DNA of 35,131 bases, taken from Bacillota bacterium (GTDB lineage Bacteria; Bacillota; Sulfobacillia; Sulfobacillales; Sulfobacillaceae). A program made the translations under genes and the position numbers. The notes beneath the pieces are model-generated. The model searched no databases. It saw only the letters and a program-made list of their open reading frames with translations, and was not told where the DNA came from. Shown here piece after piece: positions 10,691 through 14,980 of the stretch; the first letter of the stretch is position 1, and every line of letters starts with the position of its first letter. The stretch covers positions 1-35,131 of the forward strand of contig JAIMAE010000015.1 in NCBI GenBank assembly GCA_023512105.1, given 5' to 3'.

Positions 10691-11029
10691 TCCAAAGCTC
10701 CCTCCCCGAAAGCCGCTGCAAAAACCGTTTTTACGGTATGGGCGGCGGCTGTGAACGGGTTGAGATGAAGATAAAGGGTGTCTTAAGGGAACGGGGTGTC
10801 GGCCGACCATCGAAGGTCCCAACCCGCGCCTGGACGTGGGGGCGTGGGCGCGGCAAGGTCTCGCAGCGCCTCGGACCTGCCGGCATGGCCACAAGGGGCG
10901 CGCGCCCTGAGCCTGGTGCGACCGGGTGGCCCGCCTCCACCCGGTGCGGCCGGCCTCGGCCGGTGGCCCTGGAGGGGTGAGGTAGGTGCAACCAGCTGAC
11001 TTTTCCGGCCAGCAGGGGACACGCGAAAG
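10691..11029 (-). other. Non-coding leader region of asnB with several GC hairpins
   Basis: About 340 bases lie between the hairpin after the NiCoT gene and asnB, with no convincing gene. Going toward asnB there are inverted repeats: CCGGCC/GGCCGG near 10950-10963; ACCGGGTGG (10921-10929) with CCACCCGGT (10937-10945) around a 7-base loop; and a 12-base palindrome GGGCGCGCGCCC near 10905-10916. I could not match these to a T-box (no T-box consensus GGTGGNACCGCG) or any other known leader. Confidence 0.4.
10720..10732. repeat. Inverted repeat AAAAAC-C-GTTTTT just upstream of asnB
   Basis: Six-base arms separated by one base, an AT island in very GC-rich DNA, centred about 36 bases before the asnB GTG. 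The position suits an operator or part of a core promoter, but no specific regulator can be named. Confidence 0.35.
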
Positions 11030-11052
11030 CGCGCCGGCAGACACCCGGCGCG
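11030..11052 (-). terminator. Hairpin after the NiCoT gene, possible terminator
   Basis: CGCGCCGG and CCGGCGCG pair perfectly over 8 bases around a 7-base loop, starting 24 bases after the NiCoT stop. On the minus strand only CTTTC follows, so the U-tract is poor; termination may be partial or Rho-dependent. Confidence 0.4.
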
Positions 11053-11075
11053 TTCGCCAGAGCCTGGGCTCGCGG

Positions 11076-12173
11076 TTAGAGACCTGGCCCTTCTTCCGGC
11101 GACAGTTTTCGCATCTGCTCCGTCCAGCGCTCCTCGATCCGCCCATAGCGCCAGACCGCCAGGGCCACCGCCCAGGTCAGCACAAACAACCCGACGATGT
11201 AGAAGCCGGCTTGGTTGATGTTGAAGTTGGCTATCCATCCCCAAAGCCCGCCGTTTAAACCGAGCTCGCCGCCCACCACCGAGGCCAGTTCAATGGTGCC
11301 GATGCCCAAGGCCACCGCCACCGAAAGCCCAGTGACGGCGAGATTGTAGTAAATCTTGCGCACCGGCTTGGCAAACGCCCAGCCGTAAGCCACATTCATA
11401 AACGTCCCATCCAGGGTGTCAAAGAGGCTCATCCCGGCGGCAAACAAGATGGGCAGGGCCAAGATGGCGTACCAGGGCAGGCGCGAGGCCGCGGCTCCCC
11501 CGGCCAGGAACAACAGCGCCACCTCGCTGGCGGTATCAAACCCTAACCCAAACAAGACCCCCACGGGGTACATCTGCCATTCCCGGGTAATGGTGCGCAT
11601 CAAGCGGCCCAACACCCGATTAATCGCGCCCCGCGCGTCCAACAGGGCCTCGAGTTCCTGTTCCTGGTACCGCCCCCGCCACATGGCCCGGGTTACCCGC
11701 ACGATGCCTGACAACGTGACCAGGTTGATGGTGGCAATCAGGTACAAGAAGAAGGCGGAGATCAGCGTACCTAAGATCCCCAACTCGTCGTTGATCGGGC
11801 CGTGGGTCCAAGCCGCCGCGGCCTGGACCCCGAGGGCCAAGACGGCGGACAGGCCAAAGACGATAGTGGAGTGGCCCAAGGAGAAAAAGAAGCCGACCGC
11901 CAACGGCCGCCGCCCGTCGTTGATCAGCTTGCGGGTGGTGTTGTCGATGGCGGAGATGTGGTCAGCGTCAAACGCGTGACGCACGCCCAAGGTGTAGGCG
12001 GTCAGGGCCAGGCCCAAACCAAACACCTTAGTTCCGACAAAATAGTGATGCGGCATCACCAGCGCCCACACGATGGCAAACCCAACCACGTGCAGGGCCA
12101 AAATCACCAAGCCAATGGCGGTGAGTCGTAGCCGCTCCCCAAGGCTAAGCGGGGGTTGGTGGCGAAGGTTCAT
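11076..12173 (-). CDS. NiCoT-family high-affinity nickel/cobalt permease
   Basis: A 365-residue inner-membrane permease of the NixA/HoxN/NhlF family, with about eight hydrophobic helices. The NiCoT signatures are present: RHAFDADHISAIDN in helix 2, which carries the metal-selecting His/Asp residues, FSLGHSTIVF, LGFDTASEVALL, and GMSLFDTLDG. Nickel versus cobalt preference cannot be decided from sequence. The upstream regulator has a Nur-type box, which favours nickel and enzymes such as hydrogenase or urease (inference). I prefer the ATG at 12173, with AAGGGG about 12 bases upstream, over the ATG at 12203, which has no usable ribosome binding site. The regulator gene ends 50 bases upstream, so the two are probably one transcript. 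Confidence 0.95.
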   Translation of the reverse strand: MNLRHQPPLSLGERLRLTAIGLVILALHVVGFAIVWALVMPHHYFVGTKVFGLGLALTAYTLGVRHAFDADHISAIDNTTRKLINDGRRPLAVGFFFSLGHSTIVFGLSAVLALGVQAAAAWTHGPINDELGILGTLISAFFLYLIATINLVTLSGIVRVTRAMWRGRYQEQELEALLDARGAINRVLGRLMRTITREWQMYPVGVLFGLGFDTASEVALLFLAGGAAASRLPWYAILALPILFAAGMSLFDTLDGTFMNVAYGWAFAKPVRKIYYNLAVTGLSVAVALGIGTIELASVVGGELGLNGGLWGWIANFNINQAGFYIVGLFVLTWAVALAVWRYGRIEERWTEQMRKLSPEEGPGL

Positions 12174-12223
12174 CGAGGTCTCATCCCCTTGAAGAAGATC
12201 CATCCCTGGTGGGGACCGGCCGC

Positions 12224-12673
12224 CTACTGCGGCTCATCGCATCGCTCGGCGCGGTCGCGGCAGCGCGGGCACAGCCCCGCTCCTCCCAGCTGCACGCCGA
12301 ACCATAGCGCCTCTGGTTCTACGGCCAATTTGACCAGCTGATTGACTTGCTCCCAGAGCCCAGGCGGGAAATGCTGGACTTCGCCGCACCGGCTGCAGAC
12401 CCAGTGTCCATGCTCGTCGGCCCGGCCTTCCACCACCCGCACCCCGTTGGGCAGTCGGGACTCTCCGGCCAATCCCGCCTCGGTCAAGGCCTGCACGACT
12501 CGGTAGAGCGTCGAGAGCTCGATTTCCGGCGCGGACTCCTGCACCCGTCGCCACAACTCTTCCATGGTGTAGTGACGCCCGGACTGAGCCAGTACCCCCA
12601 GCACCAAGGTGCGGGGCAAGGTCGCCCGCAAGCCGCGTTTATGTAGTTGCTTCTCTACGTTGTATCGTTCCAT
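12224..12673 (-). CDS. Fur-family metalloregulator, probably Nur-like (nickel-responsive)
   Basis: About 149 residues from the ATG at 12673 (MERYNVEKQL). The N-terminal winged helix matches Fur proteins (HYTMEELWRRVQ, then STLYRVVQALTEAGL). The C-terminal dimerisation domain has EHGHWVCSRCGEVQHF and, near the end, CPRC, the two CxxC pairs that bind structural zinc. The fold is shared by Fur, Zur, PerR and Nur, so the protein alone does not give the metal. Context does: the next gene is a NiCoT permease, and the promoter contains TTGCGT-N5-TTGCAA, close to the Streptomyces Nur box TTGCAA-N5-TTGCAA. Autoregulation is likely, because the box covers the -10. An in-frame start nine codons upstream exists, but it would place the promoter inside the gene. 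Confidence 0.88.
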   Translation of the reverse strand: MERYNVEKQLHKRGLRATLPRTLVLGVLAQSGRHYTMEELWRRVQESAPEIELSTLYRVVQALTEAGLAGESRLPNGVRVVEGRADEHGHWVCSRCGEVQHFPPGLWEQVNQLVKLAVEPEALWFGVQLGGAGLCPRCRDRAERCDEPQ

Positions 12674-12674
12674 A

Positions 12675-12691
12675 TTGCAAATCGTACGCAA
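12675..12691. promoter_or_regulatory. Nur-type operator
   Basis: Plus strand TTGCAA-ATCGT-ACGCAA; on the minus strand TTGCGT-ACGAT-TTGCAA. This matches 10 of 12 defined bases of the Nur consensus TTGCAA-N5-TTGCAA. It overlaps the -10 hexamer and abuts the start codon of the Fur-family gene, the expected place for metal-dependent repression. Confidence 0.6.
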
Positions 12692-12709
12692 AAAGACCAC
12701 TCACGTCAA
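12681..12709 (-). promoter_or_regulatory. Promoter of the regulator-NiCoT operon
   Basis: Minus strand TTGACG (12709-12704), 17-base spacer, TACGAT (12686-12681). The predicted start of transcription falls at about 12673-12675, on or next to the ATG at 12673, so the regulator may be translated from a leaderless message; no GGAGG precedes the ATG. Confidence 0.55.
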
Positions 12710-12766
12710 GAGTTTTTTGGATCAAAGTATTAGAGGGGGATAAAGGACTATCTAGGCTTGGCGTGG

Positions 12767-14980
12767 TTAGAAGCGGCGAAGATAGGCGTCTAATCCCGTA
12801 GGTTCCAACAGCGGCCCCACCGCCTCGCCTTCGACCGCCTCGCAGCCAAGCCGCGCCAAGAGCTCCAAGCTTCGCGCATCGTCAACCCCGTCCGCCACCG
12901 CGGGCACCCCCAGCCTGCGGGCCAAGTCGATCACGCCGGCGACCAAGGCTTGGTCGCGAAGGTTGTCCAGGGCGGCCCGAGTCCACTCGGGGGCAATCTT
13001 GACCAAGGCCACCGGAAGGTGGCGCAAGGCCAGGAGGGATGCCGACCCTCCGCCGAAGGCATCCAAAGCCACCGCCACTCCCAACTCGGCCAAGGTTGCC
13101 ACCTGCTCCTGGGATTGAGTCAAGTCTCGCAAGGGGGCCGCCTCGGTCACCTCCACCACCAACCGCCCTCCCCATCCCGGCTCGGCTGGCGGGTTGAGCT
13201 CTCTGAGGTCTGACGGAAAGCGCGGGTCGAGAAAATAGTGGGCGCCTAAATTGACGTGGAGGTCAAGCGACCAGCCTTGCTCGCGCAGATGGATCGCCGC
13301 GCGCCGAGCCGCCTCCAGGACAAACCGGCCCAACGGGCGGGCCAGGCCGGCGGAGTCCAGCAAGGCTTCGGCCAACAGCTCCCCTTCCGGCCCGGCCGGC
13401 AGGATCTCCAAGGCGAAGGGCCGGTCCAGGGTCCCCGCCGACCCCAGGCGCACCAGCGGTCGAAATCGCACCTCCAGCCGCCCATCGGAGAGCCATTGGG
13501 CTGCCTGGTGGCGCACCCAGGTCTCATGGGCCACCTCCTCCTCCAAGGCGGCGCGATAGAGCTGGTATTGGTCTCGCCCCTGGTCCTTGGCCGCGTACAA
13601 GGCGAGGTCGGCGTGGCGCAACAAGCTGGAGGGGTCGCCAGCGTCGGTGGGGAAGTAGGTCATTCCCAGGCTGGCCGAGATGTAGACCGACTCCCCATCC
13701 AGCCGGAAGGGCAGGCGCAGGCCTTGGAGCAGGCGGCGAGCGATGGCGTCGAGTTCCTCGGCCCGATTCAGGCCGGTGAGCAGGACGGCAAACTCATCCC
13801 CGCCCATCCTCCCCACCCGGTCGGCTTGCCGCACCAGGGAGGTAATCCGTGCCGCCACCAGCTGCAACAGCCTGTCTCCGGCCTGGTGGCCCAAGGTGTC
13901 GTTGACGGACTTAAAGCCGTCCAAGTCCAGCATCCCCACCCCCACCCCGGTGGCCTGCCGGCGAGCTTGGTCGCAGGCCTGCCGCAACTGTTCAAAGAAG
14001 AGGCGGCGGTTGGCCAGGCCGGTCAACGGGTCGTAGAGCGCCAACTGCTCCAACTCGCGTTGGCGTTCAAAGGCTTCCAACCCAAGCCCCAAGCTCAAGG
14101 CGATGTGCTCCAACAGCTCTAACAGGGGCGCGGAGAAGAACTGGGGGTCGCGGGCCCGCACCCCCATCACCGCCACCACCTCCCCAAACCGCCGAATCGG
14201 GATGGCGGCCACGGCGCGGATGCCGTGGCGCCGATACTCTTGGAGCATAAACGCCAGCACCGGATCGCTCTCGACGTCGAGCGAAACCTCGGTGGTTCCC
14301 TCCCGAACCGCCTTGGCCGCCGGGGTCTGACCGGTCGGAGCGTTGGGGTCTAAGCTCAGATCGAGGTCCTCGTACAACGCTTCCAGGCCCGGCGTGGGAG
14401 CTGGAATCAGCCCGCGCAGGCGGCCTTCGGCCTGCTCCACCCACCCGATCCACACCAGCAGCGCACCGACCCGCCGCTCCAGCACCCGCGCCGCCGCCTG
14501 GAGCAGTTCGGAAGGCTCAAGGGCCGGATGCCGGGCCACCAGTTCGTTGACTTCGGCCAGAGCGGCGTAGAAGTCTCGAAGGCGCTCGGCCTCCCGTTGC
14601 GCCTGTTCGCGGTCGTTCACGGCCGAGATGATGCTCAGCAGCGCCAGTTCCCGACCTTGACGGTCCTTCAAGGGAATCTTGAAGGTGTGAAAGACCTGCT
14701 GGCCGAGCCGCTCGATGCTCTCGACCGGCCGCGCCCCCTCCCAGGCCGGATGGTCGGAGGCGGCGCAGGCGGAGGCCGCCTCCGGGCTTAGGAGCTCCCA
14801 GTCGGTCTTGCCTTTCCAGTCCCGGCCCTCAAGCCCAAACCACTGCAGCACCTGCTGGTTGGCAAACCGCCAACCACCGTTCCGGTCCTTCAACAAGACC
14901 CCGTAGGGCAGACTGCCAAGATGGCGCAACAACAAAATCCACGAGGCCAAAAGGTCGGGCTGCCTGCGCCGCCTGTGCAT
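12767..14980 (-). CDS. PAS-GAF-GGDEF-EAL protein; intact diguanylate cyclase, degenerate EAL
   Basis: About 737 residues, starting at the ATG at 14980 behind AGGAGG. Order of domains: a PAS-like sensor (about 10-120), a GAF-like domain (about 150-300), GGDEF (about 310-470) and EAL (about 480-735). The GGDEF site is RMGGDEF (Asp395), with an RxxD (RQAD) five residues before it, so it should make cyclic di-GMP and be product-inhibited through the I-site. The EAL domain has lost key residues: LEIL replaces EAL, DAFGGGSASL replaces DDFGTGxSSL, VKIA replaces LKID, and ADGVDD replaces AEGVE; only VEVTE looks normal. Phosphodiesterase activity is therefore unlikely. The protein is probably soluble, as no clear membrane segment or signal peptide is seen. 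It is a single-gene unit with its own promoter. Confidence 0.93.
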   Translation of the reverse strand: MHRRRRQPDLLASWILLLRHLGSLPYGVLLKDRNGGWRFANQQVLQWFGLEGRDWKGKTDWELLSPEAASACAASDHPAWEGARPVESIERLGQQVFHTFKIPLKDRQGRELALLSIISAVNDREQAQREAERLRDFYAALAEVNELVARHPALEPSELLQAAARVLERRVGALLVWIGWVEQAEGRLRGLIPAPTPGLEALYEDLDLSLDPNAPTGQTPAAKAVREGTTEVSLDVESDPVLAFMLQEYRRHGIRAVAAIPIRRFGEVVAVMGVRARDPQFFSAPLLELLEHIALSLGLGLEAFERQRELEQLALYDPLTGLANRRLFFEQLRQACDQARRQATGVGVGMLDLDGFKSVNDTLGHQAGDRLLQLVAARITSLVRQADRVGRMGGDEFAVLLTGLNRAEELDAIARRLLQGLRLPFRLDGESVYISASLGMTYFPTDAGDPSSLLRHADLALYAAKDQGRDQYQLYRAALEEEVAHETWVRHQAAQWLSDGRLEVRFRPLVRLGSAGTLDRPFALEILPAGPEGELLAEALLDSAGLARPLGRFVLEAARRAAIHLREQGWSLDLHVNLGAHYFLDPRFPSDLRELNPPAEPGWGGRLVVEVTEAAPLRDLTQSQEQVATLAELGVAVALDAFGGGSASLLALRHLPVALVKIAPEWTRAALDNLRDQALVAGVIDLARRLGVPAVADGVDDARSLELLARLGCEAVEGEAVGPLLEPTGLDAYLRRF

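Follow-up and report, generated by a model that had tools for sequence, protein, structure and literature searches.

A Fur-family regulator and a NicT permease gene behind a Nur-box-like operator: a candidate self-regulated nickel uptake operon in the Sulfobacillus group

The segment from 11.1 to 12.7 kb of the window (the whole stretch of DNA that was analysed, 35,131 nucleotides, contig C21 of a 3.48-Mb genome in 404 contigs) probably constitutes a self-regulated operon for the uptake of nickel, possibly cobalt. This reading is supported at the sequence level by the operator, the promoter, the leaderless layout, the gene order, conservation and the ligand residues of a Fur-family regulator. 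The source genome belongs to the same family as Sulfobacillus thermotolerans Kr1 (G023; 3,317,203-bp chromosome, CP019454), and the locus is a candidate nickel switch for the Sulfobacillus group of Bacillota. A 2019 review (PMC7055735) names Nur as the Fur-family sensor for nickel, and according to a 2016 paper (PMC4866751) Nur was known from Streptomyces alone.

Operator, promoter and gene order

The features of the locus are as follows.

12675..12691, minus strand: operator TTGCGTACGATTTGCAA, TTGCGT-ACGAT-TTGCAA, an exact match; element kept in three orthologues
12681..12686, minus strand: -10 hexamer TACGAT, 17 nt from the -35 and 7 nt upstream of the ATG
12704..12709, minus strand: -35 hexamer TTGACG; TTGAC[AG] is common to the four orthologues
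12224..12673, minus strand: Fur-family regulator, 149 aa, ATG at 12673; PF01475 3e-19
11076..12203, minus strand: NicT, NiCoT-family nickel/cobalt permease; NF052500 equivalog, 501.8 bits (cut-off 450); PF03824 7.5e-93

The preliminary description of this DNA had taken TTGCGT-N5-TTGCAA to agree with the Nur box at 10 of 12 positions, to cover the -10 and to stand before a Fur-family gene next to a NiCoT gene. All of this is borne out: the motif lies at 12691-12675 on the minus strand with TACGAT (12686-12681) inside it, the regulator scores 69.8 bits against PF01475 (Fur superfamily, winged-helix and dimerisation domain; cut-off 23.1), and NicT, with the equivalog score given above, is the next gene 3' of the regulator on the minus strand. 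The likelier start of NicT is the ATG at 12173, which is preceded by AAGGGG at 12190-12185, and the gap between the two genes is 20-50 nt, depending on the start chosen; regulator and NicT would thus be carried on one transcript as one operon. A GGDEF-EAL gene lies upstream of the regulator, with the promoter between both.

The operator is a 17-bp palindrome, TTGC-N9-GCAA; in the 7-1-7 notation of Fur boxes it is TGCnnAT-N-ATnnGCA, with TGCnnAT as half site. It ends 1 nt upstream of the regulator ATG, overlaps the -10 and extends to the predicted transcription start, which, as read from the letters, is the placement of a classical repressor site. TTGACG-N17-TACGAT is the only sigma-70-like promoter within 10900-12900, and since the -10 is only 6-7 nt from the ATG in all four orthologues, the regulator mRNA is predicted to be leaderless here and in the three others.

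We infer that the regulator binds this operator, that metal loading is the cause of the binding, and that nickel, not cobalt, is the metal concerned. In the proposed mechanism, the metal-loaded dimer would bind TTGC-N9-GCAA and block RNA polymerase at the -10 and transcription start, silencing both the leaderless regulator mRNA and the downstream NicT gene; when the metal is scarce, the dimer would release the operator and NicT would be made.

The 10 of 12 match to TTGCAA-N5-TTGCAA is, by itself, at chance level: with TTGCRTN5TTGCAA and up to two mismatches, 2.5 sites are expected per shuffled window, and with one mismatch there are 12 sites in the whole genome as against 6 when the pattern is reversed as a control. 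Shuffling gives p = 0.0006 for an 8/8 match to TTGC-N9-GCAA within 75 bases before the window ATG, and the same test on the orthologous promoters gives p = 0.039 for genome G009, 0.0004 for S. thermotolerans and 0.0086 for genome G041. The operator stands out from chance because four divergent orthologues all have it at the same position. These are confined to 4 of the 42 genomes of the order (the window genome and the three just named; 230-250 bits), and a search of 398 Bacillota genomes gave a best other score of 84 bits versus 230-250 for the true ones. The three orthologues are 41-51% identical to the window regulator. In each of the four promoters, TTGC-N9-GCA[A/T] lies exactly 1 nt before the ATG within the same leaderless promoter, TTGC closely precedes the -10 and GCA closely follows it, while the spacer from the -35 to the box has mostly diverged. 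The promoters read as follows.

Window: TTGACG-N17-TACGAT-TTGCAAT, then ATG
G009: TTGACA-N17-TATGAT-TCGCATC, then ATG
S. thermotolerans: TTGACA-N17-TATGAT-TTGCAAC, then ATG
G041: TTGACG-N17-TTCGAT-TGCAAC, then ATG

A plasmid of Rubrobacter marinus encodes a fifth homologue, which is more distant (43-48% identity). The box of this gene, TGCGAAT-T-ATTCGCG, lies 5 nt before the ATG; read as a 7-1-7 palindrome it pairs at 6 of 7 positions (p = 0.06 by itself), with only 5/8 on the TTGC/GCAA test. On this plasmid (NZ_CP045122; L139 4001-5203) the regulator and the NicO-like gene behind it both seem frame-shifted and are not listed as such; the frame shifts seem to be either sequencing errors or signs of a decaying operon.

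Box scans of the window genome found no wider regulon beyond the regulator's own promoter: with TTGCNNATNATNNGCAA and up to one mismatch, the own operator is the sole match in the whole genome, and the regulon looks local. A perfect TTGCAA-N5-TTGCAA (TTGCAAGATCATTGCAA, G000:C112:19561-19577) was set aside, as its region holds neither nickel genes nor a clear promoter; this palindrome (L002 1501) lies downstream of a glycosyltransferase-like gene and is probably due to chance. Three one-mismatch sites inspected in S. thermotolerans were likewise rejected, two being intragenic (in a leuS-like gene and an ABC-transporter ATPase gene) and one having no clear target. The expectation that a motif scan would lead to nickel genes such as hydrogenase or urease was not realised: a Pfam search found neither urease nor NiFe hydrogenase in the window genome (97% completeness), and the box search matched neither of the two in S. 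thermotolerans, where both are present. A match on contig C109 was not counted as a NiFe hydrogenase, being a hydrogenase-4/Nuo-like subunit below the cut-off; the cluster around it (L106 3771-9390) is a membrane one of hydrogenase-4/Nuo-like type, and inspection by eye of its large-subunit-like protein showed no evident pairs of Ni-binding Cys. In G009, a family search found neither urease nor NiFe hydrogenase.

The regulator and its predicted metal site

Ligand positions were assigned by alignment with PerR (2FE3) and Nur (3EYY), both reference sequences having been confirmed letter for letter. The predicted regulatory site consists of H34, E82, H88, H90 and H101, which align with PerR positions 37, 85, 91, 93 and 104, and the predicted structural zinc site of C93, C96, C135 and C138, two CXXC motifs that are invariant in the four orthologues. 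In PerR and Fur the five ligand positions hold three His and two Asp/Glu (PMC4866751). At the position equivalent to PerR-104, each of the five clade members carries His (H101), whereas the 26 other Fur-family proteins in the comparison all have Asp or Glu. In the Rubrobacter copy, His34, Glu82, His90 and His101 are retained, but 88 is Arg and Cys93 is replaced by Phe. At the positions of the Ni-site residues His70, His72 and His126 of Nur (3EYY), the window regulator has Glu71, Arg73 and Gln128, and none of these is His in the four orthologues. According to the review cited above (PMC7055735), the Ni-site of Nur may have arisen as an artefact of crystallisation.

A maximum-likelihood tree unites the five regulators in a single clade (100/96; present in 100% of bootstrap trees), which falls on the side of PerR; a 96/97 branch separates it from the references for Nur, Zur and Fur, the branch of Nur being long and its exact place unsure. 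An AlphaFold model (four sequences, mean pLDDT 77), used for the fold alone and not for metal-site geometry, aligns to Fur structures with a best Z of 14.4 over 130 residues. Alignment and tree place the regulator in a branch of its own within the Fur family, apart from Nur. It would work like Nur in its box and its target, yet we do not class it as Nur because it falls in a separate clade and the Ni-site histidines are absent. The genome encodes two other Fur-family proteins, one PerR-like (contig C267; Asp at the PerR-104 position) and one Zur-like (contig C248), which leaves nickel or cobalt free for the window regulator.

We also put forward, with a confidence that stops a little short of even, that Sulfobacillales and an actinobacterial plasmid share a second, independent nickel-sensing line of Fur, which would use the operator of Nur, bind metal in a new site of four His and one Glu that arose by a carboxylate-to-His swap, and repress its own leaderless promoter.

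NicT neighbours and competing explanations

NicT reaches the equivalog score in 2 of the 42 genomes of the order, those of the window and of G041, and in both it lies directly behind the regulator; the two proteins are 70% identical. In Rubrobacter the gene next behind the regulator belongs to the NicO family (35.8 bits, cut-off 27.7), so that, across two phyla, three of the five regulator loci have NicT or another NicO-family gene in this place. In G009 and S. thermotolerans there is no NicT, and an amino-acid permease gene follows the regulator. These two loci count against the nickel reading, as does the failure of family searches to find urease or NiFe hydrogenase in the window genome and in G009. 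In S. thermotolerans (L094 6922-6990), the stretch from regulator to permease contains the half site TTGCAAAT and the hairpin-like TATCAAG...CTTGATA, possibly a terminator or attenuator. The G009 locus (G009:C149; L102 3785-7391 and 9937-11862) has the permease behind the regulator and a ZnuABC-type metal ABC transporter operon nearby, divergent and about 2.5 kb from the regulator. A site in the znuA-like promoter (TTGCATTAGCATAGAAA, 7/8 to the box) was discarded, as it is rather -35-like and not a convincing box.

The closest plasmid-borne relatives of the window NicT are actinobacterial (57-60% identity), and the two NicT proteins of the order are about 51-59% identical to their closest actinobacterial counterparts. 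Upstream of 5 of 12 actinobacterial plasmid NicT genes there is a 7-8/8 match to TTGC-N9-GCAA, one of them perfect (TTGCACACAGTTTGCAA), and all five boxed genes are among the seven whose products are at least 53.6% identical to the window NicT. Four of the five have their box 62-66 nt upstream of a start that is in part estimated. Taken singly, the p-values are modest (0.007-0.21), and the argument rests on position and repetition rather than on these. An upstream box was absent from five more distant actinobacterial, five Thermus/Proteobacteria and nine Bacillota NicT genes; the nine NicT-like loci of Bacillota were rejected as further cases, having neither an adjoining regulator homologue nor a box. 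The fifth boxed case is Mycobacterium intracellulare, in which NicT and a Fur-family gene diverge and the region separating them has box-like sites in tandem. On its plasmid NZ_CP012886 (L144 1792-3577) these tandem TGC-N9-GCA boxes are CTGCAAAAGCCTTGCAA and CCTGCAAATGACCTGCAT, the NicT is 59% identical to that of the window, and the Fur-family regulator has neither the Ni-site set of Nur nor His101 and may, from its residues, be of a third kind. The plasmid collection also contains 2.17-Mb Neisseria gonorrhoeae 'plasmid' records of chromosome size, which may be misfiled.

A serious alternative to nickel, although on balance an unlikely one, is that the regulator senses cobalt and NicT imports cobalt for cobalamin, with a mechanism otherwise the same. 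NiCoT proteins span a range from nickel-only to cobalt-preferring (PMC2667541), the genome is without urease or NiFe hydrogenase by family search, and a His-rich site would suit Co(II) equally well; yet the transporter matches the NicT (nickel) model, and the box is the nickel box of Nur, which also precedes actinobacterial NicT genes. We consider it quite improbable that the protein is a Zur-like zinc sensor placed beside NicT by chance, its box being a variant zinc box. The ZnuABC-type operon near the G009 regulator would fit such a sensor, as would a Thermomicrobium homologue (34%) that directly precedes a metal ABC transporter, and histidine-rich sites bind zinc. However, Zur is marked by a Cys ligand where PerR has Asp85, together with the lack of a His37 equivalent (PMC4866751), whereas the window regulator has Glu82 in place of the Cys and keeps the His37 equivalent as His34. 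Moreover, no ZnuA-family protein was found in the window genome or S. thermotolerans, the znuA-like promoter of G009 has no convincing box, and a separate Zur-like protein is encoded on contig C248.

A PerR- or Fur-type sensor of peroxide, iron or manganese would agree with the place of the regulator on the PerR side of the tree and with its His/carboxylate residues at 34, 82, 88 and 90, which are as in Fur and PerR. We hold this to be very improbable: the carboxylate of PerR Asp104 and Fur Glu108 is a His in 5/5 clade members and 0/26 others, the PerR-like protein of contig C267, with Asp there, already exists in the genome, and the window box is of neither the TGATAAT nor the TTATAAT type, the box types of Fur/PerR-type sensors. 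Scarcely to be expected is a purely autoregulatory box next to which the neighbouring gene merely varies, NicT here and an amino-acid permease in Sulfobacillus, nickel having no special part. The box is indeed conserved before the regulator in 4/4 genomes whichever gene follows, and the window genome yielded no further site, but three of the five loci, which span two phyla, have NicT or another NicO-family gene next. Nickel uptake under the control of the regulator remains our preferred reading of the locus.

Comparison with known systems

The window transporter is a full member of NicT (NF052500, NiCoT), at 501.8 bits versus 450, while differing in its rarity, as no more than 2 of the order's 42 genomes contain one. 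NikR is likewise a metal-loaded repressor of nickel uptake genes but is a ribbon-helix-helix protein of an unrelated family. PerR of Bacillus subtilis (2FE3) shares the side of the tree and has counterparts of His37, His91, His93 and the four structural Cys kept in the window regulator, in which the Asp85 position is Glu. Unlike PerR, the window regulator has His for Asp104 and adjoins a nickel permease gene, and its box differs from that of PerR, whose half site is of the TTATAAT type.

Nur of Streptomyces coelicolor (3EYY) has the Fur fold in common with the window regulator, the same palindrome and spacing over the promoter (the published consensus of the Nur box is tTGCaa-N5-ttGCAA; PMC3919588) and, by prediction, the control of nickel uptake, and three of its four M-site histidines (33, 88 and 90) have counterparts. 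The window regulator differs in belonging to a separate clade, in having Glu82 and His101 and no equivalents of His70, His72 and His126, and in preceding NicT with a predicted leaderless autoregulation, whereas the published targets of Nur are nikABCDE and sodF. The earlier suggestion of Nur-type control in a Firmicute thus holds for an operator with the layout of the Nur box and for the coupling of a Fur-family gene to a nickel importer, but not for the identity of the regulator, which by clade and Ni-site histidines is not Nur. If the proposed reading is true, a separate branch of Fur with the same box and a carboxylate-to-His swap would suggest how the change of one residue can re-tune a Fur protein to a different metal.
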